Notes: generated by a model not told the origin, from the sequence alone. DNA of 64,000 nt from Firmicutes bacterium ADurb.Bin146 (GCA_002070475.1 MWDI01000021.1:1-64000), one strand, 5' to 3'. Shown: positions 1 to 58,671, counted from the stretch's first letter. Program-made: numbers and translations.

Positions 1-35
1 ACATAACGCAACATAAATATGTTAAAAACTTGACA

Positions 36-63
36 AAAAAAACAGCCTTTAAAGGCCTTGTTT
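36..63 (-). terminator. Hairpin with T-tract on the minus strand
   Basis: The 12-nt palindrome GCCTTTAAAGGC (45-56) is extended by AAACA/TGTTT arms with a two-base bulge. On the minus strand it is followed by a run of eight T. It fits a leftward intrinsic terminator, but no leftward gene lies to its right before cassette 1, so what it terminates is unclear. It may insulate cassette 1. Confidence 0.4.
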
Positions 64-141
64 ATGGGATAAATTTTAAATACCTTCATCTAGCCAACTG
101 CAAAACTATGGATTTGCACTATCAAAAGTAAGGTATTGTTG

Positions 142-170
142 TTGACAATGAGTAATTTAAAGAATAATAT
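142..170 (+). promoter_or_regulatory. Sigma-A promoter of cassette 1
   Basis: TTGACA (142-147), a 17-nt spacer and TAATAT (165-170) give a near-consensus housekeeping promoter 33 nt before the first gene. A GGTGGAGG ribosome site follows at about 187-194. No operator palindrome is obvious, so expression may be strong and mostly unregulated at this site. Confidence 0.8.
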
Positions 171-202
171 AAACATATAATATTAGGTGGAGGAAATATA
201 GC

Positions 203-559
203 ATGAAAAAGACGAATAAACTTGTCTTATGCATTCTAATTATTGCATTAATAACAATATCATCAATTACTGCATATACTGCGATGTGTTCACACGGACA
301 GGAATACTGGGATATAGTAGAGACAAAGACATATCAGTATATTGATCCTGGTATTTGTTATGAAACAACACATTGGGATATTGAATGCAAGTTATGCGGG
401 GAAATATGGGCTTTTGAATCATATAGAATGACTTCACATAACTGGATATGCGAGGATTTTGGGCATATACCAGGTGAGACTTTACACAGATATAAAAATA
501 CATGCACTCAGTGTGGTTATTCAATAATAACTGATGAATTCTGCTCGTTATTACATTAG
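203..559 (+). CDS. Small secreted Cys/His-rich protein, cassette 1 copy A
   Basis: This 118-residue protein has an N-terminal signal or anchor segment (residues 5-27) and a short mature part with CSH, CKLCG and CTQCG motifs plus spaced histidines. Two CxxC knuckles suggest a small extracellular zinc-ribbon-like fold; metal binding is inferred. It is clearly paralogous to the protein at 1629-1982: both end with C..CGYSI, an acidic stretch, FC and a terminal LH/TH. It is the first gene after the promoter, with the anchored ectodomain protein 59 nt downstream. I recognise no named family. A secreted peptide, bacteriocin-like product or transporter cargo are all possible; none is shown by the sequence. 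Confidence 0.7.
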   Translation: MKKTNKLVLCILIIALITISSITAYTAMCSHGQEYWDIVETKTYQYIDPGICYETTHWDIECKLCGEIWAFESYRMTSHNWICEDFGHIPGETLHRYKNTCTQCGYSIITDEFCSLLH

Positions 560-618
560 TTAATACTCTGATTAGTGATTAATAAAATTAATTTACAAAA
601 GAAAAGGAGGAAAATATT

Positions 619-1464
619 ATGGAAAAAGACAAAAAAGTAAAGAAGAATTTATGGATTTTAATAATATGCATCATTGTAGTTGTATTAGTAGCAACAGCAT
701 TAATTGTATTCCGTGATGAGCTGTTCAAACAGAAAAAAAGCAATAATAACCTCATAGTAATAGAAAGGATTGATGGACAGGATTCATTAAGGATGCCCCA
801 ACAGTACTTGGACAAAATCCTCATGGATAAATCGTTTTATATAGATGAGAATGCAAGTATCAGCATGTCATCTGTTGAATTTGAGATAGGAGAAGAAGGT
901 ATTAAATGGGGGATGGATCAAGGTGGTCTGGTAAATACAGCAGACAAAGATGCTATAGAAATCTTGGGTGGTATAAAATACTGTAAAGGTATATCAGATA
1001 TGAATGTTATAGTTACTGAGAAGAAGAACAGTAGTGTAGAGTTTTATGAAGGATATTCAGCTGAGATGTTTATGAATAATAGAGAAGACTATGTTATCAT
1101 ACCTTCATCCATGAGTAAATTCATAAATGAAAACCTTGCACCTGAAGAAAAGAGAATGATCTTACGTCATTCTGCTGCTTCCGGCTACTTGGGTTTCTGT
1201 ACGATAATAGGAGAGTATACAACAAAGGATGAATATGACACAATATATGTATCTTATTCGAGCATGGCAAGTCTTATAAAAGCAACAAACAATGATATGT
1301 CTGAATATGTAGATACTTTAGAAATTAAATTAAATGAAGGTAAAGATTATACTAAACTGATAGAGTATCTCAGCACATATTTCGCAGATGCAAATTCTCT
1401 TGAGAAATATGAAGGAAAGACTAATAGGTTTGATGACCCATATATGTATCAGTTTGTGCATTAA
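619..1464 (+). CDS. Membrane-anchored ectodomain protein (MacB-PCD-like), single domain
   Basis: The protein has 281 residues: a short Lys-rich cytoplasmic start, one transmembrane helix (about 11-32) and an extracellular domain. The pattern VEFYEGYSAEMF, then VIIPSSMSK, then IIGEYTTKDEYDTIYVSY matches the order of motifs in the extracellular (MacB_PCD) part of the FtsX-type permeases here, for example ITYYENYDESAF and VIGTYTNGDKDIYCPW in the permease remnant at 56399-57235. It therefore looks like a detached permease ectodomain on one helix, with no FtsX helices. It has a GGAGG ribosome site and sits between the two small Cys/His genes. A role as adaptor, sensor or decoy for the transporter is inference. 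Confidence 0.7.
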   Translation: MEKDKKVKKNLWILIICIIVVVLVATALIVFRDELFKQKKSNNNLIVIERIDGQDSLRMPQQYLDKILMDKSFYIDENASISMSSVEFEIGEEGIKWGMDQGGLVNTADKDAIEILGGIKYCKGISDMNVIVTEKKNSSVEFYEGYSAEMFMNNREDYVIIPSSMSKFINENLAPEEKRMILRHSAASGYLGFCTIIGEYTTKDEYDTIYVSYSSMASLIKATNNDMSEYVDTLEIKLNEGKDYTKLIEYLSTYFADANSLEKYEGKTNRFDDPYMYQFVH

Positions 1465-1628
1465 TGAAATAGTATTTCTTTATAACGCTATTACTTATAA
1501 GGATTATATGGGTTATCTGACTGATTGAGTTTCATAGTAAATTGATTCTATGCTGTTGAACTCCCGAATCGATTAATCTTATGCTTAGTGATATTGAACT
1601 AATATATATAATAGTGGAGGTTAAACAC

Positions 1629-1982
1629 ATGAAAAAGCAACAAAGAATTTGTCTATGCACAATAATCATTGCGATTGTTTTGGGGTTGGCAAGTATTGCA
1701 TATGCTGCATGTTCACATGACTCGTATTATTGGGATATAAATTTAACAGAAACATATGCTTATAATTGTTACGAATTTTGCTCTAAAACAACTTACCAAG
1801 AGTATGAATGCAAGATATGCGGGGAAATGTGGACAACTGAGGGAACTTCTATGGTTCCGCATGCTTGGTACCGTATAGATTTAGGGCATATACCAAGCTT
1901 ACCCCTGCATAAATTTAGAACTGTATGCTTACAATGTGGATATTCGATAGATACTGAAGAGTTTTGCCCGTTAACACATTAA
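1629..1982 (+). CDS. Small secreted Cys/His-rich protein, cassette 1 copy B
   Basis: The protein has 117 residues from the ATG at 1629, chosen over an upstream ATG at 1581 because GTGGAGG lies 8 nt before it and a signal peptide (MKKQQRIC..., cleavage probably near AYA-AC) then starts at residue 1. The mature part has CSH, CKICG, a central H-x-W, and CLQCGYS followed by FCPL. It is a paralog of the 203-559 product with the same cysteine spacing. It is followed 55 nt later by the second ectodomain protein, so the pair repeats the preceding two-gene unit. Function is unknown; zinc binding is plausible. Confidence 0.7.
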   Translation: MKKQQRICLCTIIIAIVLGLASIAYAACSHDSYYWDINLTETYAYNCYEFCSKTTYQEYECKICGEMWTTEGTSMVPHAWYRIDLGHIPSLPLHKFRTVCLQCGYSIDTEEFCPLTH

Positions 1983-2037
1983 TATTAATTTTCGGTATGT
2001 CAGTTTTTCTTAATCCTAAAGAAAAGGAGTTTATTAA

Positions 2038-3768
2038 ATGGAGGACAATAAAGAAGTAAGTAAAAAAAACATATGGATTATAGCTGCAGCCGGTATTGCT
2101 GTAATCGCAATTATTGCAGCTGTATTGATATTCAATGACAGCCTGTTCAAACAGAAAGAAACCGTTAAAAACGATATAGTAATAAAAAGAATTGACGGTG
2201 GCGATTCCTTAAAAATGCCATACAGGTACGCAAACATATTTTTTACAAAAAGTTCGTTTTTAGCAAAAGAAGAGATATTGAACTTAATAATATCTACTGC
2301 AAGTTTTGATATCGTTGAAGCGGGCATATCGTGGGGAGGAGCTGAGAATGTTCTTGTAAATATGGGAGACAAAAACGTCATGGACGACCTGGGAGGTATA
2401 AAGTACTGCAAAGGTATAACCGATGTAAGCACTATAATGACGGATAAAAGAAGAAGCAGCGTAGTTTTTTACGAGGGGTATTCTGAAGAGCAGTTTAATG
2501 ACAGCAAAGGGTATGTAATAATACCTTCATCAATGAGCAAGTATATTAACAAAGAGCTTCCTGCTGATGAAAAATTACTTTCATTGAGAAGCCCCAGCTA
2601 TTTCAATATGTACACGATAATAGGAGAGTATACCACTAAAGACGAATATGACACGATATATGTTTCGTATACAGGGTTTGAAAGACTGTTTGCTGCAGAC
2701 AGCATTTATATTTCTGAATATGTTGAAACTTGTGAGATGGATATAAATGAGGAAAAAGATCTTACGAATTTAATGGAGTTTCTTGAAAAGTATTTTGCCG
2801 ATGCAAATAAGGTTGATGAATATGAAGGCAGGCTGAATGGATTTGATGAACCATATAGGTATGAATTTATACATTCCATAAGCGTAAACCTGAAACCGTC
2901 AGAAATGCCGTCTGAGACAATGGCGGAGCCGTCTCCGGACCAGAGCGGGCAGCCGGCAATAATGAATGAAAACAATATCCTGACAATTTCAAGGATTGAC
3001 GGCGGTACCGATCTTAATATGTCTTATGTATATGCTGATATGCTGATAAATCATTATAAGGAATATTCACAGTACATAGACGATATAGTCATCAGTACAG
3101 GCCTAAAGGGAGTTGATATGGATTCAGTACCCATATTTACAAATGTTGAACCATATGGAATGGATATCGTGTGGTCTGTCACAAGAGAAGAAATTAAAGA
3201 TTGGCAACTGTTTGCAGATATCATGTTCCATCAGTCCGTTACCGGCACAAGCGAGATAATAAGTAATAAAAGCGATTGTGAGATTAAATTCTATGGGGAC
3301 TATACCGAAATGGATCTTACCATGCCAAGGGAGGAAGACTGTAAGAACATGATAAAAGGGTATGCCATAGTACCGACAACATGCAATGATGCGTTTGTAG
3401 GATACAATGAAGGAGAATCAGGGCTGACGGTTACTTATTCCTCAAGGGAAAGAGATGAAAAAAGTAATGTTCCTTTAATAATGCCTATATTTAAAGTTAT
3501 TGGTGAATATGTGACTACAGACAGGTATGACACGGTTTATTTAACATATAAAGGGTATAATGAAAAGTATATAATCGAAGAGTTTAAGAGTGAGTATATT
3601 GAATCAATCGTTATAGAGACGAAAAAAGATATTGATATTAGGCCGTTCTTGGAATATATTGAATCGCTTTTCGCACCTGCTGATAATGCTGGGGAATATG
3701 CAGATAAGAATAATATACTAGATATACCGTATGAATTCTGCTATACTATGACAAAAGAAATGGAATGA
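2038..3768 (+). CDS. Membrane-anchored protein with two MacB-PCD-like ectodomains
   Basis: The protein has 576 residues with one N-terminal helix (about 11-32) and two copies of the same extracellular domain (about 45-280 and 315-576) joined by a Ser/Pro-rich linker. Both copies start with an I-x-RIDGG motif and contain a GEY-T-T-x-(D)-YDT-(I/V)-Y motif. The first copy is closely similar to the 281-residue protein at 619-1464, so this gene arose by duplication plus internal duplication. It precedes the permease genes by 73 nt and probably shares their transcript. An extracellular accessory role next to the permeases is inferred; no enzymatic motif is seen. Confidence 0.7.
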   Translation: MEDNKEVSKKNIWIIAAAGIAVIAIIAAVLIFNDSLFKQKETVKNDIVIKRIDGGDSLKMPYRYANIFFTKSSFLAKEEILNLIISTASFDIVEAGISWGGAENVLVNMGDKNVMDDLGGIKYCKGITDVSTIMTDKRRSSVVFYEGYSEEQFNDSKGYVIIPSSMSKYINKELPADEKLLSLRSPSYFNMYTIIGEYTTKDEYDTIYVSYTGFERLFAADSIYISEYVETCEMDINEEKDLTNLMEFLEKYFADANKVDEYEGRLNGFDEPYRYEFIHSISVNLKPSEMPSETMAEPSPDQSGQPAIMNENNILTISRIDGGTDLNMSYVYADMLINHYKEYSQYIDDIVISTGLKGVDMDSVPIFTNVEPYGMDIVWSVTREEIKDWQLFADIMFHQSVTGTSEIISNKSDCEIKFYGDYTEMDLTMPREEDCKNMIKGYAIVPTTCNDAFVGYNEGESGLTVTYSSRERDEKSNVPLIMPIFKVIGEYVTTDRYDTVYLTYKGYNEKYIIEEFKSEYIESIVIETKKDIDIRPFLEYIESLFAPADNAGEYADKNNILDIPYEFCYTMTKEME

Positions 3769-3841
3769 ACCCGTTAGATATTATTCATGCATCCGGCCAG
3801 AAGCATAAATTGGCTTAATAGGCATTATTATAAGGAGATTT

Positions 3842-5794
3842 ATGGAGTACTCATTAAAATCGTTTTACAGAACGCCTGCAAGAAGCATTATATATATAAT
3901 ATTACTAGCACTGACTGCTACATCTTTGTGTACGAGTATAGCTATGTGGCGATATTCAGTTGAAAGCATCAAGCAAGTGAAAGACACCTTTACCACTATA
4001 GGGGTACTGTCCGAGTTGGAATTCATGGAACAGAGTTATGTAAAATCAGATCCGCCTTTATATGACTATTCCATGCTTGCTGAAGTTAAAAATAAAGCTA
4101 TGGAATCAGAATATGCTGTAGCTGCTGATATTCGTGAATATGTAATGGGGTATAACGAGAATATTTATGCAGATGTTAAGCAAGGTAGTGAAGTTGAGAC
4201 ATATCCTTATTGTTGGTCTATTGTTACAGGGATATGCGAAAGTATAGAATTTCAAAATTCTCTCAATTACAAAGCGGTTTTAAGAATAGACTACAGCGAC
4301 CTCAACATATTACCTGGTTATATTAACCGATTTGAAGATCCTCAGCTAATAGATATACTTGGCACATATATAACAGAGGATAATAAAAGTCCGTTCAAGG
4401 TCGGTGAAAAGTATATGGTATATGTAATGTGCAACTCATATTACATACATGACGGATATATTAATGCCCGTATCGACAGATTGGTGGACGATTATTATAA
4501 ATACGAAGAGATTGTAAAATATGATTCTACTACAATGAAAGAAGAATTCGGAGAGTTTGGTGAGAATAAAGTCTTTTATAAACTTAATAATCCATCTTTG
4601 TATATGGTGCAGAAGATTGATACAACAGCTTATGATTTTATTGAAAATGAAAAAGGCTTATGGGCAGATAGGGTTGAAAGATGCAAGATAACACAGCATT
4701 CAGCCGAACTAATTCTGACAAACCGGATAAACAGTATTTACATGTTCAATACAAATGAGGCATACATTGTTGAAGGAAGGAATATTACAGACGAGGAGTA
4801 TACAAATGGAGCAAATGTATGTGTTGTCAGCAGTTCCTTTGCAACGAATAATAAACTGAGAATAGGGGATAAACTGACACTCAAAGTATATGAAAATGAT
4901 TACAAAATCATGTCTAGTACACTAAAAAGAACAGACGCTGAAGCGGGTGTATGGAGGTCGCTTGAAGGAAAAGATAAATTGGATGTCTGGTTGTCAAAAG
5001 GATTTGATCCTGATAAAGGATTTTTTACAGAAGTTGAATATGAGATTGTAGGAGCATATGCCATAGAGAATAGAGCGGACAGAAATGAATTTACTTTTAC
5101 CAATAATGCGGTTTTTGTTCCTCAGAAATCAATTGATGGAGATTTTAATACACAACCTACTGTACATACAATATCAAGATATACAGATGAGCTTATAAGG
5201 ACTGAACTATTAAGGACCAGCATACCAGGTTCATTTTCTGTCATTATTAAAAACGGATATACAGATGCTTTTGAGAAAGAAATGGAAGAAGCAGGATATG
5301 GAGGGATTTTCTACTATTTTGACCAGGGATATACAAAAGTAAGCAAGATTCTTGATGAATATAACGATATTTCGATGCTTATCGCACTTATATCAATACT
5401 AGTATGGGTAACAGTAGTTGTTGTATTCATAACAACATATGTATCAAGAAGCAGACGGGATGTCGCCATAATGCGTTCTTTAGGGACATCAAAATCGAAA
5501 ACATATATATCTCAGTTATTTACAATAATATTGATTGCATTGATTGCTGCCATAATATGCTCAATATCAGGAACTGTGGTATATAATAAAATTACTGATG
5601 TAGCATTTTCGGATATAGCTAAGGACAGCAATGCTGTTGATGGTTTGGTGAGTATAATAGACAAAGCTAGAAATACAGTCATAACAGCAGCAATAATCCA
5701 ATTCTTCTTAACAGTCATATCCTTTGCAGTAATATTACTTTTACAGGTTAAACAGAATGTCATATTACTGATGAAGAAGGCAAAAAAACAATGA
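3842..5794 (+). CDS. FtsX/MacB-type ABC permease, large subunit
   Basis: The protein has 650 residues. One helix near 13-35 is followed by a long extracellular region (about 36-505) and three C-terminal helices (about 511-535, 557-580, 615-640). This is the MacB/FtsX arrangement; the motif SRRDVAIMRSLGTSKS before the second of the last three helices is typical of FtsX. It overlaps the next permease by 4 nt and probably forms a heterodimer with it, powered by the ATPase at 7001. MacB-type transporters move peptides, lipoproteins or antibiotics across or out of the outer membrane leaflet, or transmit force rather than substrate. The 57232-58671 remnant is a paralog (shared FEKEME-GYGG-YYYDQGY block). 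Confidence 0.85.
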   Translation: MEYSLKSFYRTPARSIIYIILLALTATSLCTSIAMWRYSVESIKQVKDTFTTIGVLSELEFMEQSYVKSDPPLYDYSMLAEVKNKAMESEYAVAADIREYVMGYNENIYADVKQGSEVETYPYCWSIVTGICESIEFQNSLNYKAVLRIDYSDLNILPGYINRFEDPQLIDILGTYITEDNKSPFKVGEKYMVYVMCNSYYIHDGYINARIDRLVDDYYKYEEIVKYDSTTMKEEFGEFGENKVFYKLNNPSLYMVQKIDTTAYDFIENEKGLWADRVERCKITQHSAELILTNRINSIYMFNTNEAYIVEGRNITDEEYTNGANVCVVSSSFATNNKLRIGDKLTLKVYENDYKIMSSTLKRTDAEAGVWRSLEGKDKLDVWLSKGFDPDKGFFTEVEYEIVGAYAIENRADRNEFTFTNNAVFVPQKSIDGDFNTQPTVHTISRYTDELIRTELLRTSIPGSFSVIIKNGYTDAFEKEMEEAGYGGIFYYFDQGYTKVSKILDEYNDISMLIALISILVWVTVVVVFITTYVSRSRRDVAIMRSLGTSKSKTYISQLFTIILIALIAAIICSISGTVVYNKITDVAFSDIAKDSNAVDGLVSIIDKARNTVITAAIIQFFLTVISFAVILLLQVKQNVILLMKKAKKQ

Positions 5795-6990
5795 TTAATA
5801 TGCTTAGGAAAATCACACACAGCATATCATACACATTCACAATCCTTTTTAGAAAACCAATAAAAAGCCTTGCTGTCATATTATCAATTACAGCTTTTAC
5901 TGTGCTCATCTGCCTTATGGAGTTTACGATACAGAAACAGGAGGATCTGCTTTCTGACATGTATGAGCAGTTTAAAATTAATCTAGTTATAATGGATAAA
6001 TCCGCTTCATACAGCGAGGATCTTAGTATGAATAAGAAATATGCTTCTCTATTCATGGATAAGGAAAATGTCCTATTTGAAAATTTGAGTAACTTAAAAA
6101 TCCGTAGTAAAGGAGAAGAAGAAATAACAGTTACAGATGAATATGGTGACTATATAACCTCTTTGAATGTAATCGGCCTTACATATCTTCCCGACACATC
6201 AGAGTTTGATGTGACAACCGAAATGGGAATTGATTATGACAATTCAATGTTAATGAGCGGCAGGAATGTATGCATAGTGCCAAACAGGATAAGCAGCATA
6301 GGCAGCTATGTATATATAAAATCAGAGAAAGTTGAAGAGCTTGTCGAATATCTTGTAATAGGAACATACGAACAGGAAGATATCATCTTCTTTTGTCCCT
6401 ATCTAAATTACAGTGAATTACTAGCTTCTTCCAGTAATAACATATACAGTATAGAAAGTGATATTTCTAATACAAAAGCAATAAATGATATAGAAATATT
6501 TTTGCTCAAGTATTTCATTGAGCCTTCAATAGCCGGAGTCACACCTGTTGGGACTAATGAGCTTGGATTGCAATATGCTTTCTCTTTCGTAATACCAAAA
6601 GGTAATCTTGAGGAAGCGATAGATCCGATAAAGGCAGATATAAAAAAGCTACAGATATTAGAGCCATTTGTTTTTGTTTTTTCGATTGCAATCGGATTTA
6701 TTATAAGCATGTTGTCAATAAAGAACAGGAAAGCAGAGTTTGCGGTAATGAGAAGCATTGGAGCTTCTGGCAAATATGTTTTCTATATTAGCTTTATTGA
6801 ACAGGCTGTATTATGTATTATAGGCGCTTCAATAGGTGCTTTAATCAGCTGGCTTTCATATAGCCAGTTAAGTGATCAGCAACTAAATAAGATAATGATA
6901 TTTGTCGCCTGTTATCTTTTAGGTACAATAATAGAGGCAATTAGCATAGCAAGTTTAAAAGTCATGAGAATAATGAAAGCAAGCGAATAA
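5791..6990 (+). CDS. FtsX/MacB-type ABC permease, small subunit
   Basis: The protein has 399 residues: a helix near 20-42, an extracellular domain to about 285, and three C-terminal helices. FtsX signatures are NRKAEFAVMRSIGASGK and the long hydrophobic end. The ectodomain has the VIGTYEQEDIIFFCPY block that is shared with the detached ectodomain proteins upstream. It overlaps the large subunit (4 nt) and is followed after 10 nt by the ATPase, which indicates a single operon. The frameshifted gene at 56004-57235 is its paralog. Confidence 0.85.
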   Translation: MINMLRKITHSISYTFTILFRKPIKSLAVILSITAFTVLICLMEFTIQKQEDLLSDMYEQFKINLVIMDKSASYSEDLSMNKKYASLFMDKENVLFENLSNLKIRSKGEEEITVTDEYGDYITSLNVIGLTYLPDTSEFDVTTEMGIDYDNSMLMSGRNVCIVPNRISSIGSYVYIKSEKVEELVEYLVIGTYEQEDIIFFCPYLNYSELLASSSNNIYSIESDISNTKAINDIEIFLLKYFIEPSIAGVTPVGTNELGLQYAFSFVIPKGNLEEAIDPIKADIKKLQILEPFVFVFSIAIGFIISMLSIKNRKAEFAVMRSIGASGKYVFYISFIEQAVLCIIGASIGALISWLSYSQLSDQQLNKIMIFVACYLLGTIIEAISIASLKVMRIMKASE

Positions 6991-7000
6991 GGAGATCAAA

Positions 7001-7675
7001 ATGGCAGATATGGCTATACTTCAATTGGACAAGGTTAGTTATGAATACAGAAATAAACATCAGACTGTTAAAGCAGTCAATGAATTTTCATATGAATTCA
7101 ATCAGGGACTATTTTATGCTATAACAGGAAAATCCGGTTCAGGGAAGACCACTTTATTATCCTTGATGGTTGGACTGGATGTTCCTACAGAAGGTGTTAT
7201 TAAATATGAGGGAAAAAACCTAAAAGATATGAATATGGATAAATACAGAAGAGAATATGTTTCATTGATATATCAGGATTTCAATCTGTTCCCCTTGCTT
7301 ACTGCTCTTGAGAATGTAATGTATCCGCTAAAACTGAAAGGCCAGAAAACAAGCGAAGGCAAGCTTCTAGCTATGGATAAACTTAAGATGGTCGGACTTG
7401 ATGAGTCCTATTATAAAAGATACCCTTCCATGTTATCAGGAGGCGAGCAGCAAAGGGTGGCAATAGCTCGTGCTTTAGTAACGGGCTCTTCAATACTGTT
7501 AGCAGATGAACCGACAGGTAATCTTGACACAGAAAATGGTAATAATATAGTCTCTATCTTAAAAGATCTTGCACATAACGATAAATTCTGCGTAATAGTC
7601 GTAACACATGACCTTGAGATAGCTTCTGTTGCTGATAAAACACTAAGTTTAAGGGATGGTAAGCTTATACTATAA
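7001..7675 (+). CDS. MacB/LolD-type ABC transporter ATPase
   Basis: The 224-residue ATPase has Walker A GKSGSGKT (43-50), Q-loop YQDFNLFPLL, signature LSGGEQ (145-150), Walker B ILLADE (165-170) and the H-loop VVTHD (His203). Sequence and length match the MacB/LolD/FtsE group that drives FtsX-type permeases. A GGAGAT ribosome site precedes the ATG, and the gene ends cassette 1. It stops 4 nt before the end of the opposing glycosidase gene, with no terminator in between. A second ATPase of the same type at 55309-55995 is about as similar as a recent duplicate or transferred paralog. Confidence 0.93.
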   Translation: MADMAILQLDKVSYEYRNKHQTVKAVNEFSYEFNQGLFYAITGKSGSGKTTLLSLMVGLDVPTEGVIKYEGKNLKDMNMDKYRREYVSLIYQDFNLFPLLTALENVMYPLKLKGQKTSEGKLLAMDKLKMVGLDESYYKRYPSMLSGGEQQRVAIARALVTGSSILLADEPTGNLDTENGNNIVSILKDLAHNDKFCVIVVTHDLEIASVADKTLSLRDGKLIL

Positions 7676-7679
7676 TACC

Positions 7680-9737
7680 TTATTGCCCTCTTCTTAGCAC
7701 AGTCTTTGTTTCAGTATCAAACAGTATAGTCTCTCCTGCATTGAAATGCAGGGTGACTTCAGTATCTTTGAACCTGATGGTTCTGTCTCCTTCATTTTCT
7801 GCATGTACTAAAAGAAGACCGGAACCTTCAAGAACTGCATCATTGCAATCATCATAGATATGTACATCGCTTCTTTCAAATACATATCTGAATGCTTCCG
7901 GTGTTGTAAAAGGTATTGTTGAGAAATATACAACACAACCGTTTATTGTTTTATAGGATAATGCCGGGATGTTATTTATGTATCCTAATACTTCACCATC
8001 TTTAGGTACAAACAGCTTATTCAATCTGCTCTCTTCATCACTGTTATCAACTGAATAGGAAAAACCTTCACACTGTACATTTATCTGCGGCATCGGTGCA
8101 ATAACATCCAAATCAAAACCTGATACTTCCTCACAGAAAGATATATCATTTCTTTTGGTATCAGTATATCCTGGAGCAAAGAACCATACTACTGAGCGAC
8201 CTTTTTTGTGTGCTTTTTTTGATATTTGTTCTTTTTGTGTTTGTGTTAGAGCAAATGTATTCATGAATACTATACATTTGTATTTATCAAGGTTAGCTTT
8301 TTCAAAGTCACTAAGATATATTGTGTCGATCGATGCTCCAGAGCGCAAAGCCATCGGGTAGGATATGTTTATGCAGGATTTGTCTGTAATAGGGTCCTGT
8401 TTCTCTGTAAGGGCTGTATGTTTTTGGACTTTGGTATCAAACACTAAAAGCACATCAGCATTCTTTATATATGCCTTTTCATAGTACTTGTTGAATATCT
8501 TCTGCAATTCTTTTATCTCATTAAGGTAATACGGGTCATTCCACCATCCTGACGTGTTATATGGTCCGAAGTCATAGTACCAGAATCCCATTCCGGATAT
8601 AAAGGAGGTAAGGGCGTTTCTTCTTAATATCTGTAAGGACTCGTATTCAGGATATACCTTCATTCCTCCAAGAAGTGTTCCCAAATGGGTTGGGTGGTCC
8701 ACCTCATCAAGTAAAAGTTTGTTATTCAACCTTGCTGACTCCAAAAGCCCTCTGCTGACTCCGGCTCCGCCTATATTCCTTAGATTTCTGTTATATGCCT
8801 GAGGAGCGGATATATAGTCTATATATGGACAGTTGAGTATCATCTCTTCAGATAGATGCCCGCCTGTTCCTGCTCTTCCAAATAAGGATACATAATACCC
8901 ATAGAATACACCGGTTATAATCTCTCTTTTCCATGTATCTTTTACAAGCTTGCAGAAGTGAATCATTGATTCAACAACCGCTTCATGCTGGCAGGTAAGA
9001 TAATCAATAATGTTCGAATCCTTTGCAGGGTCAAAGAATATGCCGTCTTTCGGATTATATCTTTCATCCATTCCAGGAATTGTAGCATCTGGGTCATTTT
9101 TAAACTTCCTGTATCTTCTTAACATAGGTTCTGATATGTCAGGGTCGTTACCTACAAAAGCCCAGTAATGGTTTTCCCCATACAGACCGCTAGCTATATG
9201 TATACCTCCAAGATGAACAGATAAAGGTGATTCATACAGTTCATTTAAGAATCTTTTTATCATTATGGACATGTCATTTATCCATTTTTCAGAAGCGAAG
9301 CTGGGTCTTGGAACAGGTTTCTGATCATAATGCAGATAGCTTTGTATCTTATTCATATCTGGTTCGGGATAAACTTCAGTATTTGCATATCTTACCCATT
9401 CGCTTTCATTATCAGCATACCACCACTTTGGAGGATTGGTATGCAGTCTAAAGAATACGACAGCATCAGGCTTTATATCTATTATTCCCTGAATCTGCTT
9501 CAAAGCTATAGATATATCTAAGGAACCGTCCTTCAACCACATGTCTTCAAAAGAGATATCCAACTGATAAAGCGAAACACCTGCAGATGCAAATCTTTTT
9601 ATGGAAAATACAGTACTTTCCTCATAGCTTAATCTGCCCCCTGGCCAGTCAGTAAGCGCATAAATTATTGGAGGGACTGGTTTGTTGTCTATAAATATGG
9701 TTGGTCTGTTATTGTAGTTCTGTATTCTAGCGTTCAT
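7680..9737 (-). CDS. GH42-like glycoside hydrolase (beta-galactosidase fold)
   Basis: The protein has 685 residues and no signal peptide, so it should be cytoplasmic. The first 400 or so residues look like a TIM barrel: NPPKWWYADNESEWVRY near the start is GH42-like, with candidate acid/base Glu188 in LYGENHYW and nucleophile Glu345 in LLLDEVDHP. The following segment (about 425-600: ADVLLVFDTK, CIVFMNTF, RSVVWFFAPGY) resembles the Rossmann-like trimerisation domain of GH42, with a small beta domain at the end. Substrate is probably a beta-galactoside or related oligosaccharide; the exact linkage cannot be read from sequence. It is transcribed alone, convergent with cassette 1. Confidence 0.75.
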   Translation of the reverse strand: MNARIQNYNNRPTIFIDNKPVPPIIYALTDWPGGRLSYEESTVFSIKRFASAGVSLYQLDISFEDMWLKDGSLDISIALKQIQGIIDIKPDAVVFFRLHTNPPKWWYADNESEWVRYANTEVYPEPDMNKIQSYLHYDQKPVPRPSFASEKWINDMSIMIKRFLNELYESPLSVHLGGIHIASGLYGENHYWAFVGNDPDISEPMLRRYRKFKNDPDATIPGMDERYNPKDGIFFDPAKDSNIIDYLTCQHEAVVESMIHFCKLVKDTWKREIITGVFYGYYVSLFGRAGTGGHLSEEMILNCPYIDYISAPQAYNRNLRNIGGAGVSRGLLESARLNNKLLLDEVDHPTHLGTLLGGMKVYPEYESLQILRRNALTSFISGMGFWYYDFGPYNTSGWWNDPYYLNEIKELQKIFNKYYEKAYIKNADVLLVFDTKVQKHTALTEKQDPITDKSCINISYPMALRSGASIDTIYLSDFEKANLDKYKCIVFMNTFALTQTQKEQISKKAHKKGRSVVWFFAPGYTDTKRNDISFCEEVSGFDLDVIAPMPQINVQCEGFSYSVDNSDEESRLNKLFVPKDGEVLGYINNIPALSYKTINGCVVYFSTIPFTTPEAFRYVFERSDVHIYDDCNDAVLEGSGLLLVHAENEGDRTIRFKDTEVTLHFNAGETILFDTETKTVLRRGQ

Positions 9738-10631: not shown

Positions 10632-11048
10632 ATGAAAAAATCTGTTTTCAGCAAACGTCTAATTATTTTAGTAGTCTGTATTATTTGCTTAATTTTACCA
10701 TCTTCTATTTATGCTTCTGAGGAGTATAACTCTGATTTTGAAGAAGGCGTATGGTTAGGACATAATTATGTTGCACATTTATATGGCAACCATAAATGGG
10801 CATATGCTTCTCTAGGATATTACAATTATTCAGACTTAGATATTACACTTGAAACAACATGTGGATCAGCATATTTATGGTTAATATATGATATTCAATA
10901 TACTTATTCAAGTGTTGATGATGCTCGTTTCTGTAGTCATACATGGTATTTTGATAATTTTCTAGCACTATGGCATAATGCATATTTTCAAGTTAATAGT
11001 AATTACTTTATGAGGTCATTAGGTGTTTTTGTATATGATTTCCAATAA
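10632..11048 (+). CDS. Small secreted protein, first gene of cassette 2
   Basis: The protein has 138 residues with a clear signal peptide (basic MKKSVFSKR, hydrophobic 10-25, likely cleavage after IYA-S). The mature part of about 110 residues is rich in Tyr, Trp, Asn and aromatic pairs, with two cysteines (CGS and CSH), and predicted mostly beta. I recognise no family. It is the promoter-proximal gene of a lipoprotein and ABC-2 transporter operon, the position a secreted effector, bacteriocin (a lactococcin-972-like arrangement comes to mind) or transporter cargo would hold. That reading is inference and the sequence does not match the bacteriocin convincingly. Confidence 0.65.
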   Translation: MKKSVFSKRLIILVVCIICLILPSSIYASEEYNSDFEEGVWLGHNYVAHLYGNHKWAYASLGYYNYSDLDITLETTCGSAYLWLIYDIQYTYSSVDDARFCSHTWYFDNFLALWHNAYFQVNSNYFMRSLGVFVYDFQ

Positions 11049-11054
11049 CATTTA

Positions 11055-11075
11055 GGTAATAAGTAATTTATTATC
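11055..11075 (+). other. Weak hairpin after the small secreted gene
   Basis: An 8-bp AT-rich stem (GGTAATAA / TTATTATC, one G-U pair) with a 5-nt loop begins 7 nt after the stop codon. It lacks a T-tract. It might stabilise the upstream message end or partly attenuate transcription, so that the small protein is made in excess of the transporter. Confidence 0.3.
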
Positions 11076-11113
11076 GAGATATCAATATATACTTGATTAA
11101 ATAAAGGAATTAT

Positions 11114-12244
11114 ATGAAAAAGATATTTGCATTACTATTTATATTATCATTATTATTAGTAAGTTGCAGTAACACTCCTGCTACTGATTCAGAACACGCA
11201 AACAGCATAAATAATACAATTGATTATAACGATTATATAATATCAGAAGGAATATTTACCTGGACCAAAGCAGGAATTTATACAGTTTCTGATCAGAAAA
11301 TTTATCACCTGAATGAAAATAATGAATGGAATATACTATGTTTAGATCCATCATGTGAGCATAATAGTCCTACCTGCAGTGCGTTTTTAGAACCGCCGAC
11401 TGTTATTTTCTCATATGATAATTATCTGTACTATTTCAATAATTCAAATGGCGTATATAATTTATGCAGAATGTCTCAAACAGGTCGAGACAGAGTTGTA
11501 ATAAAAAAATTGGATATACCCTCAGTTTCAGCATCAAGCCAGACTAGCACGTTTCATATTTCATCAAATATTCTCATAATATCATGTAAAACATATGAAG
11601 CCGACAACACTCAAACAACAATATATATGACAACGCTTGACCCAGATACACAGATTGATACAATTTGCTCAGGAGATGTTAGTCTGTATAAGCTGACACG
11701 TAACTGGCTGTTTTTTGTTGAGAATAGTAATAATTTAGCAACGCTTTATGCATATAATACTGAAACGCAAGTTAAATATGCAATATTCGATAATTTCACA
11801 GAGATAATGCCATTTTTAGCTAGTGTCTATTTAACAGAGGATTTCAAAGTCTCTTGGGTTTTAATGAATGACGGCTTTTATCAGATGGATTTAGTTACAG
11901 GAGAAAAGCAATTGCTGAAATCAGCTGATAATGAGATTCTTTCAGGTGGAGGCTGTTACGATGAAAAGTATGTATATATAGTAAATACAAATCCATATCT
12001 TGATAAAATTTCTGGAATTGAAGACGAAGAAAAAGGTCTATATATTTATGACCATGATGGGAATTATGTAGATTATCTGTCCACAAAAGATCTAAGAGGT
12101 TATATTAGTTATGCTTTTGCTACCGAAGACTATGTGTTTTTCGTGAATATACTCGACAAGCCGATGCTTGCCAATTACTGTATAGACAAAAAGCACATAG
12201 GTACAGGGGATTTAAAGTGGATAAAAATAAACAAGGGAAGATAA
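11114..12244 (+). CDS. Lipoprotein with beta-propeller-like repeats and Cys/His motif, A
   Basis: The protein has 376 residues with a lipoprotein signal (LLLVSC, lipid on Cys18). The exported part has repeating strands (YDNYLYYFNN, DRVVIKKL, YIYDHDGNYVDYL) like Firmicute six- to eight-bladed propeller lipoproteins. Near residue 76 is the motif LCLDPSCEHNSPTCSAF, with three Cys and one His in a spacing kept in two other lipoproteins here; metal binding is possible. It is 6 nt before a paralog (12251) and in the transporter operon. It could bind a ligand for the permease; no catalytic motif is seen. Confidence 0.7.
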   Translation: MKKIFALLFILSLLLVSCSNTPATDSEHANSINNTIDYNDYIISEGIFTWTKAGIYTVSDQKIYHLNENNEWNILCLDPSCEHNSPTCSAFLEPPTVIFSYDNYLYYFNNSNGVYNLCRMSQTGRDRVVIKKLDIPSVSASSQTSTFHISSNILIISCKTYEADNTQTTIYMTTLDPDTQIDTICSGDVSLYKLTRNWLFFVENSNNLATLYAYNTETQVKYAIFDNFTEIMPFLASVYLTEDFKVSWVLMNDGFYQMDLVTGEKQLLKSADNEILSGGGCYDEKYVYIVNTNPYLDKISGIEDEEKGLYIYDHDGNYVDYLSTKDLRGYISYAFATEDYVFFVNILDKPMLANYCIDKKHIGTGDLKWIKINKGR

Positions 12245-12250
12245 TACATT

Positions 12251-13396
12251 ATGCAGATAACTAAAAAAATAATAATATTATCAGTAATGCTTGTTTTATT
12301 ACTAACAAGCTGTAACAGAAACAATTATTCACCGGAACCTTCGTACAATGACACAGGAATAAATTACAATGATTTTATGCCTATTACTGGTACATATGCA
12401 CTGACAGAACAAGGAGCTTACACTGTTGTAGAAAATAGAGTCTATTATTTGAATGATGAAAATAAATGGAATTTATTGTGTTTTGATCCAGCATGTAAGC
12501 ATAAAAGCTCAGCTTGCAGCGCATATATCAGCAGAGTCTCTGAGATATTTACTTACGATAACTATATTTACTATTTTTCAGGTTATAAAGACAATGCAAT
12601 TACATTGAGCAGAATGAATCTTATGGGAAAAGAAAGGGAAGATGTTAAAAAGATCATAATAGAGAATTCCACAAGCAGTGCAAATTATGCATATACGATA
12701 AAAGCAAATAATCTGATGATAAGGTTCAGATCCATTGACAGAGAAAAGGATTATGTTTCAACTACTCTGTACACTACTGATTTGGATAAGAGCACTGATG
12801 TAAAAGTAGTTGCTACTGGTGATGTTGATGAGTTTATAATGACAAAGTACTGGTTATTTTATACAGAAAAGTTGAATGGTATTTACTCGTTGAAAGGATA
12901 TAGCTTTGAAACCGGTGAATATATTACTATATTTTCAGATTTTACAGAACCAAGCAAATATATATCGACTATTTACACGCCTGATCCCGATACTTTCTAT
13001 TGGTTCCAAGCTGATAAAGGGTTCATGAAGATGAACAAGGAAGATATGAATCATGTAGTGATAAAGAAAACTGATCCTTCTTATGAGAGAGGGGGAGCAA
13101 CATATGGCAGTGAATATATCTACATATTTAACTATGTCAGCATTACTGACAAAAATCTGGGCATACCTGAAGAGAAAAGAGGACTGTTTATTTACAATCA
13201 TCAAGGTGAAATAATTGATTTTATCGGTATAACATCCTTAGGAGTTGATATTACAGGATATACATTTGAAACAGATGATAAAGTATATTTCAGGGAGATA
13301 TCAGGTAGTTCGACTCCCAATTTGTATTGCATCTCTAAAGAAGATATAGGATCAGGGAATCTAGTATGGTCATTGGTAGAAATGGATATTGATTAG
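12251..13396 (+). CDS. Lipoprotein with beta-propeller-like repeats and Cys/His motif, B
   Basis: The 381-residue paralog of the preceding protein has a signal ending LLLTSC (Cys18) and the motif LCFDPACKHKSSACSAY near residue 75. The blade-like strands match along the length, for example YIYIFNY and GLFIYNHQGE against YVYIVNT and GLYIYDHDGN. The two genes are a tandem duplication. It precedes the permease by 17 nt. Its role is unknown; an envelope ligand-binding or sensing partner of the transporter is the simplest inference. Confidence 0.7.
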   Translation: MQITKKIIILSVMLVLLLTSCNRNNYSPEPSYNDTGINYNDFMPITGTYALTEQGAYTVVENRVYYLNDENKWNLLCFDPACKHKSSACSAYISRVSEIFTYDNYIYYFSGYKDNAITLSRMNLMGKEREDVKKIIIENSTSSANYAYTIKANNLMIRFRSIDREKDYVSTTLYTTDLDKSTDVKVVATGDVDEFIMTKYWLFYTEKLNGIYSLKGYSFETGEYITIFSDFTEPSKYISTIYTPDPDTFYWFQADKGFMKMNKEDMNHVVIKKTDPSYERGGATYGSEYIYIFNYVSITDKNLGIPEEKRGLFIYNHQGEIIDFIGITSLGVDITGYTFETDDKVYFREISGSSTPNLYCISKEDIGSGNLVWSLVEMDID

Positions 13397-13413
13397 GAAC
13401 TACTGGAGTAAAT

Positions 13414-15720: not shown

Positions 15721-16577
15721 AGCTTGAGTTAAGATCATTGAGCAAAAATTACGGGAATATCCAGGCATTGGATAATTTCAGTTATACATTCGAGAAGGGA
15801 GTATATGGCATTGTAGGCCCTAATGGAGCAGGTAAAAGCACGCTTATGGGACTTATCACTGATTCATTGAAACGTCAGACCGGTTCAGTCTTATGGAATA
15901 ATACCGATATATTAAAATGCGGGATAGAGTATCGCCGTCTGTTAGGTTATATGGTTCAGGAACAGGGATTGTACGAATCAATGACCGCAAAAGAGTTTCT
16001 TGATTATATTGCTATGTTAAAGGAGATACCTAAGAAAGATGCTAAAACCCAGATAGAAGACCTTTTAGATGTTATGCATCTTACATCAAACGCTAACAGA
16101 AAGCTTAAAGGTTTCTCACATGGTATGCGGCAAAGGGTGTTGCTCATACAGGCTCTGCTTGGTTCGCCGAAGGTTATAATCCTTGATGAGCCGACGTCAG
16201 GGGTAGATCCTATGGAAAGGATAGCCATAAGAAACTACATATCAAAAATAGCACAGGATAGTATCGTTCTGTTAGCTACGCATGCAATATCAGATATAGA
16301 GTGTATAGCAAACCAGGTTCTGCTTCTGAATAAGGGACATCTTATCATATCAGATACGCCGGAGACCCTTATAAAATCCATACAAGGCAAAGTAGGTGAG
16401 AAATACTGCACAATTAATGAGATTGCTGATATTCAAAAGGAATATGGAGTATGTAATATTTATCAAAGACATGATGGTATAGTTTTAAGGTTAGTCAGTG
16501 ATGATTTACCAGCTGATTTTAAGAAGATAAAAAGTCCATTAGGTCTTGAAGATGTATATCTTTACTATATAAAATAA
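15717..16577 (+). CDS. CcmA/ABC-2 type ATPase, cassette 2
   Basis: The protein has 286 residues from a GTG start that overlaps the permease stop (GTGA), with GGGGGAGG just before it. Walker A GPNGAGKS is at 34-41, the signature is the divergent FSHGMRQ (133-139, rather than LSGGQ), and Walker B is VIILDE (153-158). The C-terminal tail after residue 215 is the regulatory part common in this ABC-2 group. It is the last gene of cassette 2. Confidence 0.9.
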   Translation: MKLELRSLSKNYGNIQALDNFSYTFEKGVYGIVGPNGAGKSTLMGLITDSLKRQTGSVLWNNTDILKCGIEYRRLLGYMVQEQGLYESMTAKEFLDYIAMLKEIPKKDAKTQIEDLLDVMHLTSNANRKLKGFSHGMRQRVLLIQALLGSPKVIILDEPTSGVDPMERIAIRNYISKIAQDSIVLLATHAISDIECIANQVLLLNKGHLIISDTPETLIKSIQGKVGEKYCTINEIADIQKEYGVCNIYQRHDGIVLRLVSDDLPADFKKIKSPLGLEDVYLYYIK

Positions 16578-28182: not shown

Positions 28183-28193
28183 ATCACAATTAC

Positions 28194-29390: not shown

Positions 29391-29399
29391 TTCATTTCC

Positions 29400-31151: not shown

Positions 31152-31226
31152 CTCTGTAGTCTTTCATAATTATTAAAATTCAATTAATTAATAAATTATC
31201 TATTAATGCGCATATTACTCATCAAT

Positions 31227-31240
31227 AGTATTGCAATACT
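31227..31240 (-). other. Palindrome between small secreted gene and lipoprotein
   Basis: The 14-nt perfect palindrome AGTATTGCAATACT lies in the gap after the cassette 3 small secreted gene; TCAAT/ATTGA arms may extend it with a small bulge. There is no T-tract. As in cassette 2 it could be an mRNA-end stabiliser or partial terminator; a protein operator is also possible. Confidence 0.35.
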
Positions 31241-31275
31241 GAATTGAATTTAGACAAAATAAATACTTATTAAAA

Positions 31276-53230: not shown

Positions 53231-53335
53231 CTCTGTGTGTTGTATTATATATATTGCTATAAAAAATATTTATATAAGTATATAATAATGCTGTAAATAT
53301 TGAAACAGATATTGTGCCAGGGGAGGGATGAATTT

Positions 53336-55308: not shown

Positions 55309-55995
55309 TTATCCGATAACCAGTTTCCCGTCCCTCATGCTTAAGACCTCGTCAGCATCAGCCGATATCCCGAGATCATGAGTAACCACTATGACACAGT
55401 AACCCTCATCATGTGCAAGGGTCTTCAATATCCCTATGATGTTCTTACCGTTCTCGGTATCAAGGTTCCCTGTCGGCTCATCAGCCAGTATTATCTGAGC
55501 TCCTGACGCCAGTGCTCTTGCTATTGCGACCCTCTGCTGCTCTCCGCCGGAAAGCATGGAAGGGAATCTTTTATAGAACTTTTCATCCATTCCTACCGCA
55601 TTTATCTTTTTAGTAGCTGTCTGCCATGCCTGTTTCTCATTCATTCCCTTGAGCTGCAAAGGGTACATGACGTTCTCAATCACTGTAAGTAGAGGGAACA
55701 GGTTGAAGTCCTGGTATATTACTGATACATCCTCTCTTCTATACCTGTCACGGTCCATCTCCTTAGTGGACTTGCCCATGTATGAGACGCTGCCTTCTTT
55801 AGGAACATCCAGCCCGGCAAGCAGGGAAAGGAGGGTAGTCTTGCCTGAGCCAGACTTGCCTACTATGGCATAGAACCTTCCTTTTTGGAACTCATAACTT
55901 ACCCCGTTGACCGCTTTTACTGTCTGGTACTTGTTGCTGTATTCGTATACTGTGTTATCAAGTTCAAGTATTCTCTGTTCTGTTTCCATTTTCAT
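55309..55995 (-). CDS. MacB/LolD-type ABC ATPase, paralog
   Basis: The 228-residue ATPase is a close paralog of the cassette 1 ATPase: GKSGSGKT, IYQDFNLFPLL, MLSGGEQQRVAIARAL and LADEPTGNLDTENG are the same. All ATPase motifs are intact. The partner permease genes upstream on this strand are broken (56004-57235 and 57232-58671), so it may be an orphan or be borrowed by another FtsX pair. By eye its codons are richer in G+C than the cassette 1 copy, hinting at a different history. Confidence 0.9.
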   Translation of the reverse strand: MKMETEQRILELDNTVYEYSNKYQTVKAVNGVSYEFQKGRFYAIVGKSGSGKTTLLSLLAGLDVPKEGSVSYMGKSTKEMDRDRYRREDVSVIYQDFNLFPLLTVIENVMYPLQLKGMNEKQAWQTATKKINAVGMDEKFYKRFPSMLSGGEQQRVAIARALASGAQIILADEPTGNLDTENGKNIIGILKTLAHDEGYCVIVVTHDLGISADADEVLSMRDGKLVIG

Positions 55996-56003
55996 ATTCC
56001 TTT

Positions 56004-57235
56004 CTATTCGTTTGATTTCATTATTTTCATTACGTTAATTCTGGTTATGTTGATTACCGCTACTGTCGCGCCTGCAAGATAGCATGCGATAAATATGAGT
56101 ATGTCTTTGGCAATGAAAAGAGCTCCTGTACCGTGTATTAGGAAATATATGCCTATACCTATCAGTGTGCCGATTACCCCGAACAGAGACTGTTCGAAGA
56201 AAGCTTCTGTAAAGACCAGTCCCTTTGAGGTGCCCAGGCTTCTCATATTGGCAAACTCCGGCTTCCTGTTCCTTATGAAAAGCATACAGGCTATGAAGCC
56301 TATAACTGCTGACAGGATGAATATGATAGGTTTTACTTTTTCAAGCATGCTTATATTCTTTCTTAACGGAGTTATAGTCTGTACAAGCTGATTATCCATT
56401 AAAGTAAGAGCATATTTATCGTAGTATCCTTATCATTACCCATATAGCCCGTCGGTACAAATATTTTCGATGCTTTTTCCTTAAATTCATCAATCTTCAA
56501 GTTGTCAGTTATCGTAAATTTAAGGCCTTCACTGTATAAATCACCTGTAAAACCTATTTTAAGGGTTTCTACAATGACTGGCCATGGGCAGTATATATCT
56601 TTATCACCATTAGTATATGTACCGATTACTTTGAGTTTTATCGGTACTTTTACCATTTCCCTGCTTACAAGTTCGATATATGCATACAGGGTTATGTAAC
56701 CGTCTTTATCTATTCTTGGAGTACCTGTTGATTTACCCTCTGCTAATTTTGCAGATACAAGACAAATGTCTGAATCGCTCAAAAAAGCTGATTCATCATA
56801 ATTCTCATAGTATGTGATTTCTGCCTTGTTGACAGGAAGAAGGCTGACATCTGCTTTTGTCCTGCTTATACCTATCAGATTAGGTAAAGCCTCTCCATCG
56901 GGTGGAGTGTAATTTTCACTAGGGAGGTAGTACACCGATCTTTTCAGGCATAAATCTTTTATGTAGGAGCTATATTCACCAATAGTTTCACTAAACATCT
57001 TTATATACTTTGAATAGACTTTTGCTTCAGTGCCGTCCTTCATAGTCAGAAATCCTTCTACATCAATTGTTTCATATGCTTCATTCATCCTTGTATACTG
57101 TTTTTCCAGTGAGAATGATATCTCACTGATAAGAATAGTGAATGATGCAGCAACAAGGATAAGTATAAGGCTCTTTATAGCATCTCTTGTCATTCTTTTT
57201 AATGCATAACTTATGACAAATACAAACTTTCTCAT
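56004..57235 (-). pseudogene. FtsX/MacB-type permease, small subunit, frameshifted
   Basis: Two frames cover one permease. 57235-56399 (278 residues) has the first helix and the ectodomain (VIGTYTNGDKDIYCPW), ending in INMLLL then TAA. 56399-56004 (131 residues) starts at an ATG overlapping that stop (TAATG) and has the three FtsX helices (NRKPEFANMRSLGTSKG). In the +2 frame the segment reads ALTLMDNQLVQTI, continuous with the intact 399-residue paralog at 5791, so a one-base lesion is the simplest view. A split two-subunit gene with translational coupling is the alternative. Confidence 0.75.
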
Positions 57236-58671
57236 TTCTTTTTCCTCCCTTTTATCCTGCCTGCTCCCTTCAGTAGGGCGAGCGGCTCCATCATGGAATA
57301 CCTCTTAGCCATTACAGCTGAAGCGGAAGACAGGAATATAAGCTGTATACCTCCTATCATAAGCACGGACTGAGGCGATTTCTTCAAATCAAAGCTCTCG
57401 ATGAGTGAGGAGTCATATTTTCCGGATATGGACTGGTCTGTCTTAAAGCTGCTGAACTCCAGGTTCACATTATCCTCCCTGGCTTCCTCATATATCTTTC
57501 CCACTATGCCATCATACATGAAATACCCGGCGATCCCGCCTGCAAGGCTGGATATGATTATCACGCACATAAGCATTACAAGCATATGTACGAATATATG
57601 GCTTCTTTTTGTCCCGAGAGACATCATTATCCCCGCGGTCTTCCTGCTCCTTGAAGCCATGATTATGAAGAAAGCTGACAGCACTACCGCCCATACGGCA
57701 ACAGACACATACATCAAAAGGCTGGTGCTCTCCTTAAGGGAGTCCAGTATGGGTGATATCAAAGAATACCCCTGGTCATAGTAATAGAACATGCCGCCGT
57801 ATCCTAATGATTCCATCTCTTTTTCGAAAGCCTCAATATGGCCGGGCTTGATGACGTACGAGTGGGTGTTGGATATGCTTTGATACTGGCCAGAAGCAGC
57901 AGGTATAATCTCGCCTGTCTCCTCAATGATTTTCCTACTAATTCTGAACTCTGGAAGCTCAAACGTTATGGATCCTTCTATAGACCCTTGCGGTGCGAAT
58001 GCATTGTTAGGTGTGAAGAAGAACTCGTTTTCGTCCCATATGTTCTCAGCCTTGTATATGCCTATGACCTCAAAAGTACTCTCTTCAATGAATCCGCATC
58101 CGTCACCATATGGGGCATGCCGCCATATTTGTTCACTATCTGTCTTCAGCATAATATATCCGTTGGACCAGAAACTAAAATTCATCTTATCTTCGACCTT
58201 TATGCCGCTGTCTCTTGCGGTCTCTGCGCTGATGATGCATACCTTAGCCCCATCGGAATATTCCTGTTCCGTGAATGTTCGGCCTTCTGTAATGTATGCA
58301 AGGCCCTGGTTGAATAAAAGGATGCTGTCAAGGTTCCCTGTGAAGTTCATCTTGAGGGAGCTCAGGGTTATCTGGCACTGCTCTATCAATCTTTCCCATT
58401 TCTCTCCTTTTTCAGAAGAAAGAAAATCCTCAAGTGTTCCATCCAGTTTCGCATATGATATATATGCGTCATCTTTGTATGCTTTTATATTGCAGTCCTC
58501 GATATTGTATTCCTTTATTTCTACTGTACCAAATGGGCGTCCTTTAATGATAATGCTGCTATCAGTCCCCAGAATCTCGTGCATATATGGTTCGAATTTA
58601 ATCAATTCATAATATTCATAGTCTGAATTAATATCTTCCTTTGGTAGCAGACCCTCGAGCCAGAAACCCAC
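57232..58671 (-). pseudogene. FtsX/MacB-type permease, large subunit, 5'-truncated
   Basis: The readable 479 residues match residues about 165-650 of the intact large permease at 3842 (VERCKITQHS against IEQCQITLSS; FEKEMESLGYGGMFYYYDQGY; three C-terminal helices). The first helix and about 165 residues are missing, the apparent GTG start (58671) has no ribosome site, and an in-frame stop (TAA) comes 12-14 nt upstream. The sequence beyond 58671 does not code for the missing part. This is a truncated remnant, with its break point near 58670. Confidence 0.8.

Follow-up and report, generated by a model that had tools for sequence, protein, structure and literature searches.

Why should a transporter locus carry, twice over, a gene for a small Cys/His protein followed by a gene for a membrane-anchored protein that resembles part of a permease? 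This question is raised by the start of a 64,000-nucleotide stretch from Firmicutes bacterium ADurb.Bin146, a little-known sludge bacterium (MWDI01000021.1:1-64000; hereafter the window), whose base 1 is the first base of its contig (G000:C21, i.e., a contig end). Seven co-directional genes occupy positions 203-7675 in the order s203, 619, s1629, 2038, 3842, 5791, and 7001 (Table 1); the first four form two such pairs, and the last three code for permease 1, permease 2, and an ABC (ATP-binding cassette) ATPase. Our analyses indicate that the anchored domains are very probably ectodomains of permease 2 that were freed from the FtsX core and multiplied. Comparison of related loci further points to a conserved association between the small protein and the permease pair, to which the anchored ectodomains appear to be a genus-level addition.

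Both 619 and 2038 are predicted to have a single N-terminal transmembrane (TM) helix, with few cytoplasmic residues ahead of it, and neither is a four-TM permease of the FtsX type, the FtsX core (PF02687) giving no Pfam match in either protein. This agrees with an earlier account of the DNA that a model had made from the sequence (the sequence-only reading), which described one-helix proteins lacking that core. The two proteins yielded no meaningful Pfam or NCBIfam family and no Pfam match to HlyD/MFP-family (MacA-like adaptor) domains, and the search against the MacB periplasmic core (PF12704) that the same account had proposed returned nothing up to an E-value of 1. When profile comparison was confined to regions outside the TM helices, the anchored-family profile aligned with that of the permease-2 ectodomain (5791 and its relatives) with an hhalign probability of 97.7 and an E-value of 2.5e-12 over 203 columns, reaching a score of 86.2 versus a top score of 20.6 among 60 column-permuted anchored profiles. 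Consistently, pairwise alignment of permease 5791 gave z-scores of 5.2 with 619 and 8.3 with the N-domain of 2038, and the hidden Markov model (HMM) of the anchored family also picked out permease-2 relatives, albeit from small databases (L069, E 5e-8; L173, E 9.3e-6). Kinship with permease 1 was rejected, as the profile comparison reached only E 0.09 over 15 columns. The signal comes from the cluster's own 5791 and from profiles rather than from positions 56399-57235, where the sequence-only reading had seen shared motifs: the claim was right in kind, VIGTYTNGDKDIYCPW being present there, but pairwise alignments with that segment were not significant (z 1-3), and the segment is itself just the front half of a permease 2 that is split in two.

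An AlphaFold2 model of 619 (mean pLDDT 86.8), for which the input alignment contained no permease, led to the same family. Foldseek returned six matches with E-values below 0.001, namely to MacB, YknZ, and LolE (E 2e-6 to 7e-4), and the first 30 rows obtained with VIA-align were all ectodomains of MacB-family ABC permeases, including MacB (3ftj; Z 10.7, 191 residues, 5.4 Å), YknZ (5f9q; Z 9.6, 176 residues, 5.4 Å), and those of LolC/E and YtrF (Z up to 10.7 overall). The predicted structure thus has the ectodomain fold common to MacB, LolC, and YknZ. Because the model matches MacB-family ectodomains (i.e., those of MacB, YknZ, and LolC/E) and not an unrelated fold, the earlier proposal that permease ectodomains had been separated and multiplied withstood its own test.

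The pair at 203-1464 recurs at 1629-3768, with the second anchored protein internally duplicated; here the open reading frames (ORFs), identities, and shuffled controls all bear the sequence-only reading out. More specifically, s203 and s1629 share 47.9% of their amino acids, and 619 and the N-domain of 2038 about 52-53%. Alignments involving the N- and C-domains of 2038 scored 723, 211, and 224, far over the shuffled maxima of 61-72, and both ectodomains were matched by the anchored-family (A2) HMM (i-E 7e-119 and 3.5e-36). At the DNA level, aligned bases of the two units agree at only about 64% and 67%, which makes the duplication of the two-gene unit an old one. Another species of the genus (G003:C16) has the same order, its first anchored gene clustering with 619 and its second with 2038, so that an assembly artefact is excluded. 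In that second species, the small-protein genes (L047, about 744-1101 and 2174-2527) are broken by stop or frame changes, and other genomes hold intact copies. The genes of the cluster are separated by 59, 164, 55, and 73 bases, followed by a 4-base overlap (3842/5791) and a gap of 10 bases, and a ribosome-binding site (RBS) precedes each of the early ones; an in-frame ATG at 1581 would give a longer ORF, and the RBS supports 1629 as the start of s1629. Promoter and terminator scans of 1-7900 gave nothing above chance, no plasmid copies of 2038 or s203 were found, and the gene directly after the cluster (7680-9737) lies on the opposite strand.

In both permeases an ectodomain separates TM1 from TM2, as in type VII transporters, with predicted helices at residues 13-31, 512-530, 562-580, and 616-634 in permease 1 and 27-45, 292-310, 330-348, and 368-386 in permease 2. 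The FtsX core (PF02687) was matched by 5791 with 33.5 bits (cut-off 25.5) and by 3842 with 23.8, just under that value; permease 1 was also borderline for PF12704 (25.6 versus 27 bits). The product of 7001 matched ABC_tran with 115.7 bits, and its best NCBIfam model was LolD, under its cut-off. On these family assignments, the products of 3842, 5791, and 7001, with an FtsX core and a LolD/FtsE-like ATPase, constitute a heterodimeric FtsX/MacB-type (type VII) ABC transporter. A defence-system family search gave just a weak match of a permease to a Lol-like model.

The small proteins s203 and s1629 each have a predicted signal peptide and two CxxC motifs, and ten relatives all conserve residues C62, C65, H79, C101, and C104. 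In an AlphaFold2 model of s203 (pLDDT 87, from five sequences), the structure is all beta save for the signal helix, and C62/C65 and C101/C104 lie at the turns of two hairpins (51-62/68-78 and 94-101/107-113, respectively) in a zinc-ribbon-like manner. Curated zinc-ribbon families in Pfam gave sub-threshold matches only (RUBY_RBDX, DZR), and a fold search against the PDB gave no convincing match, the best (Z 5.0) being to an unrelated methyltransferase. The small protein is probably a zinc ribbon that would be secreted and would bind metal.

Strong matches to the small protein were found in G000, G001, G003, G465, and G606 (E <1e-25) and in G108 (E 5e-6), and every one of them adjoins permease 1; outside the genus, the small gene immediately precedes the same permease pair. 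The loci with the small protein beside permease 1 include G001:C272 (L072), one in another family (G108; L073), and two in another class of the phylum (G465 and G606; L173 and L185); the small proteins of L073 and L173 share a C-terminal C.GNPC..PYS tail. Since this linkage reaches another family and another class at loci lacking the anchored ectodomains, the latter appear to have been added within the genus. The conserved neighborhood makes it likely that the small protein is an extracytoplasmic partner of the transporter. Weaker matches consist of a stretch within Cys-rich proteins of 1600-1750 amino acids (aa); two of these, from G500 (L186, L187; 1730-1750 aa), carry many CxxCG...H repeats and one stretch akin to the small protein. 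Such surface proteins with CxxCG/HxW repeats, from Clostridia-like genomes, resemble it over that stretch (E 2e-7 to 4e-6 in the roughly 1700-aa proteins) but hold it embedded in long repeats, whereas here it forms an independent secreted domain next to the transporter. A candidate extra small protein beside a transporter (L115, G020) was discarded, having no adjoining permease.

Across 99 relatives and 291 genomes of the class, the anchored family itself was confined to the four genomes of this genus; the few other matches (E 0.001-0.004) covered short N-terminal stretches only. It occurs in two settings. Where it belongs to a transporter cluster, the anchored gene usually stands after the small Cys/His gene and before permease 1, and within the genus it is directly 3' of the small gene in nearly all cases. 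Elsewhere, double-domain genes are dispersed as orphans, alone or in arrays (four consecutive genes in L037, two in L038), among unrelated neighbors such as valS, alpha-amylase, and SpoIID genes; in many of these orphans a lipobox (e.g., LLSVSC) replaces the plain TM helix, so that the products would be lipoproteins. One orphan ectodomain gene lies within a 19-kb region of two species (L050 and L049) that is about 91% identical overall and a mosaic with 100%-identical blocks of up to 2.6 kb, one of them containing this gene; the mosaic points to recent recombination or to mixing of metagenome-assembled genomes.

In a tree rooted on permease-2 ectodomains, all anchored domains formed one clade (100/99) and the C-domains another (92% of bootstraps), with conserved, mirror-image N and C clades. 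Single domains of the 619 type nested within the N-domains of the double proteins (87/90), and three other singles (L042, L051, L053) joined the C-domains on a long branch. Because 619-like singles sit inside the N-domain group, 619 has probably lost a C-domain and the double-domain form would be the older one, a tentative order given the rooting and the long branches. The view of 2038 as a duplicated 619, taken in the sequence-only reading, is thus probably to be reversed.

The mechanical work of type VII ABC transporters takes place outside the membrane, typically by way of a function-defining partner protein (PMC12646458; PMC5985334). Starting from the observed gene content, the homology and predicted fold of the anchored domains, and the linkage between small protein and permeases, we propose that 203-7675 codes for such a mechanotransmission machine, in which two different four-TM permeases and one ATPase work with an extracytoplasmic partner of their own. 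This partner, or possibly substrate, would be the small Sec-secreted protein with its two CxxC knuckles. In the genus, the permease-2 ectodomain would have been copied off the FtsX core onto an anchor of its own (TM helix or lipid), then duplicated internally and multiplied, partly alongside the small gene and partly at dispersed positions. The anchored domains would hold the ligand of the permease-2 ectodomain at the outer face of the membrane, which in this cluster is probably the small protein by itself or together with a target, and the held ligand would be handed to the ATP-driven permease pair or kept from acting on the cell. We regard the overall picture, a machine whose anchored domains serve as binding copies of the permease-2 ectodomain tethered at the surface, as about evenly poised between right and wrong, and the role of these domains as tethered binding copies, taken by itself, as having at best an even chance. 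A wider version, i.e., a partner-defined branch of type VII transporters, absent from the literature searched, with a small secreted zinc-ribbon-like partner, in which one genus turned a permease ectodomain into expandable TM- or lipid-anchored receptors or decoys, is put forward tentatively and falls a little short of even.

Several observations agree with tethered binding. Relative to G001, the small and anchored proteins are 65-70% identical, the permeases 74-84%, and the ATPase 92%, so that the small and anchored proteins diverge faster; the two were duplicated as a unit; and their distances correlate (r 0.85; partial 0.67 given permease 1). The lipoprotein forms suit binding on the outside, and two further clusters in the window, built from unrelated parts, show a comparable layout. 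Gene adjacency within the genus and block duplication likewise support the idea that anchored proteins hold the small protein in a putative physical interaction. Other observations weigh against it. The distance correlation does not remove shared ancestry, and most orphan double-domain genes have no adjoining transporter. A fixed pairing of small and anchored proteins is further countered by L072, L073, L173, and L185, where the small protein and the permeases occur without an anchored protein, and by G002, which has many anchored proteins and in which no small protein was detected at E 0.01 (the genome being 85% complete); the anchored domains therefore cannot need the small protein everywhere.

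Among other explanations, it is rather unlikely, if still worth weighing, that the small protein acts as a secreted toxin resembling a bacteriocin and that the transporter and the anchored ectodomains provide two-part self-immunity, in the manner of LanI with LanFEG or of the proposed lactococcin-972-type immunity genes. LanI is a lantibiotic-immunity lipoprotein encoded beside LanFEG, an ABC-2-type exporter, and is unrelated to permease ectodomains. The lantibiotic system likewise combines a binding protein tethered at the surface with a neighboring ABC transporter and a small secreted protein, but there is no modified peptide here. The logic of small secreted, surface-anchored, and ABC genes recurs twice elsewhere in the window with unrelated parts, the small and anchored genes have duplicated fast and as units, and MacB-family transporters protect against SDP and AS-48 (PMC5985334). 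Against such a toxin stand the embedding of the same Cys/His core in large Cys-rich proteins, the orphan anchored genes lacking any toxin gene, and the failure of the small protein to match any bacteriocin family in Pfam or NCBIfam up to E 1. Lactococcin-972-type loci (e.g., streptococcin B, scbABC) code for a Sec-secreted small beta protein, a membrane protein, and an ATPase (PMC11796350) and thus resemble the cluster in their three-part layout; unlike them, it has CxxC knuckles in its small protein, two separate permeases, and anchored ectodomains. Membership in that group was rejected, as no bacteriocin or associated NCBIfam membrane family was among the matches up to E 1, and the permeases did not match the lactococcin-972 immunity family.

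The sequence-only reading had offered adaptors and sensors as roles for the anchored proteins. That they are MacA/YknX-like adaptors, or pseudo-subunits that form an assembly with the permease ectodomains and lengthen or tune the extracytoplasmic portion of the transporter, is unlikely: they are homologous to the ectodomain of a permease that dimerizes in MacB-type transporters, the gene order is co-directional, and SpMacA and YknX are Gram-positive precedents (PMC5985334), yet no adaptor family was matched, many members are lipid-anchored and distant from any transporter gene, and similar transporters in L069, L072, and L073 do without anchored proteins. A sensor, i.e., an ectodomain receptor reporting its ligand to regulators as BceB does with BceS, is very unlikely. 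One orphan gene for a double-ectodomain lipoprotein does follow a response regulator/histidine kinase pair at a distance of 36 bp (L043:7530-11998), but this is the one kinase neighbor among about ten orphan loci, and the TM forms have few cytoplasmic residues before the helix; the idea also loses ground because many relatives, being lipoproteins, have no cytoplasmic end. Since such lipoproteins can neither signal across the membrane nor enter a permease helix bundle, tethered binding (presentation, sequestration, or immunity) is favored over sensing. The least probable explanation by far, a lineage-specific expansion of decaying permease copies with little or no function, would fit the restriction of the family to one genus and the clear decay of a second permease locus in this genome, but not the long intact frames, the residues conserved across 35 anchored domains, the conserved mirror-image clades, or the high-confidence predicted fold.

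The cluster resembles type VII systems of the MacB family (MacAB-TolC, LolCDE-LolA, FtsEX-EnvC/PcsB, YbbAP-TesA, YknWXYZ, and YtrEF) in its four-TM permeases, whose ectodomain lies between TM1 and TM2, its LolD/FtsE-like ATPase, and its likely extracytoplasmic partner, but unlike them it also has free ectodomains, single and tandem, TM- or lipid-anchored. None of these systems is described, in the literature found, as combining two unlike permeases with a small Cys/His partner, and our search terms retrieved no publication on free-standing MacB-type ectodomains. Type VII machines are defined by their extracytoplasmic partners, which are used for function prediction (PMC12646458), and a small secreted Cys/His protein found in two classes alongside one and the same permease pair offers a new partner that can be tested. 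The permease-free, multiplied ectodomains would be a natural means of learning what such ectodomains bind in the absence of the membrane part, lipid-anchored forms already existing. Together, the anchored copies and the small protein suggest a new accessory part, of putative function, for a major class of cell-envelope machines.

Table 1. Features of the 203-7675 cluster and of the decayed second permease locus in the window
Feature	Coordinates	Strand	Description
s203, small secreted Cys/His protein, 118 aa	203..559	+	signal peptide; mature part starts CSH; CKLCG...H...CTQCGYS
619, anchored single-domain protein, 281 aa	619..1464	+	one TM helix and one MacB_PCD-like ectodomain, without FtsX core
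s1629, second small secreted Cys/His protein, 117 aa	1629..1982	+	48% identical to s203; RBS precedes 1629
2038, anchored double-domain protein, 576 aa	2038..3768	+	TM helix, two ectodomains, Pro/Ser/Glu-rich linker (about residues 282-308)
3842, permease 1, 650 aa	3842..5794	+	4 TM; large ectodomain follows TM1 and precedes TM2; MacB_PCD/FtsX-type
5791, permease 2, 399 aa	5791..6990	+	4 TM, FtsX core; ectodomain (about residues 47-290) akin to anchored domains
7001, ABC ATPase, 224 aa	7001..7675	+	closest to LolD/FtsE/MacB-type
Related second locus, seemingly decayed	55309..58671	-	ATPase 55309-55995; permease 2 split, 56004-56399 and 56399-57235; permease 1 57232-58671, without N-terminal part

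No anchored or small gene was found adjoining the decayed second locus. Its intact relative (L072) has the small protein, a 1386-aa fused permease 1, a 406-aa permease 2, and an ATPase cut by the contig end. Tandem fusions of permease 1 were seen both there (L072:1602-5762) and in L071 (1-3926; at least 1308 aa, reaching a contig end). Not all such transporters come with the small protein. L069 and L070 carry a different lipoprotein, which was considered as a detached permease-1 ectodomain and rejected, as Pfam gave only a weak lipid-attachment-site match and its repeats look different. In L071 (6183-7453), L175, and L176, the upstream place of the small protein is taken by an ECF sigma factor together with an anti-sigma-like membrane protein (DUF4367 or zf-HC2/DUF4179).

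Two further clusters in the window repeat the layout of small secreted protein, lipoproteins, and ABC transporter with unrelated parts. At 10632-16577 (+), consecutive genes code for a 138-aa secreted protein (for which no family was found), lipoproteins of 376 and 381 aa, a permease with 12 TM helices, and an ABC ATPase; the set at 24944-31671 (-) comprises a secreted protein of 131 aa, lipoproteins of 583 and 398 aa, an ABC ATPase, and a 13-TM permease. Finally, a lipoprotein-like protein with a PI-PLC-X domain is encoded at 53300-54331 (+).

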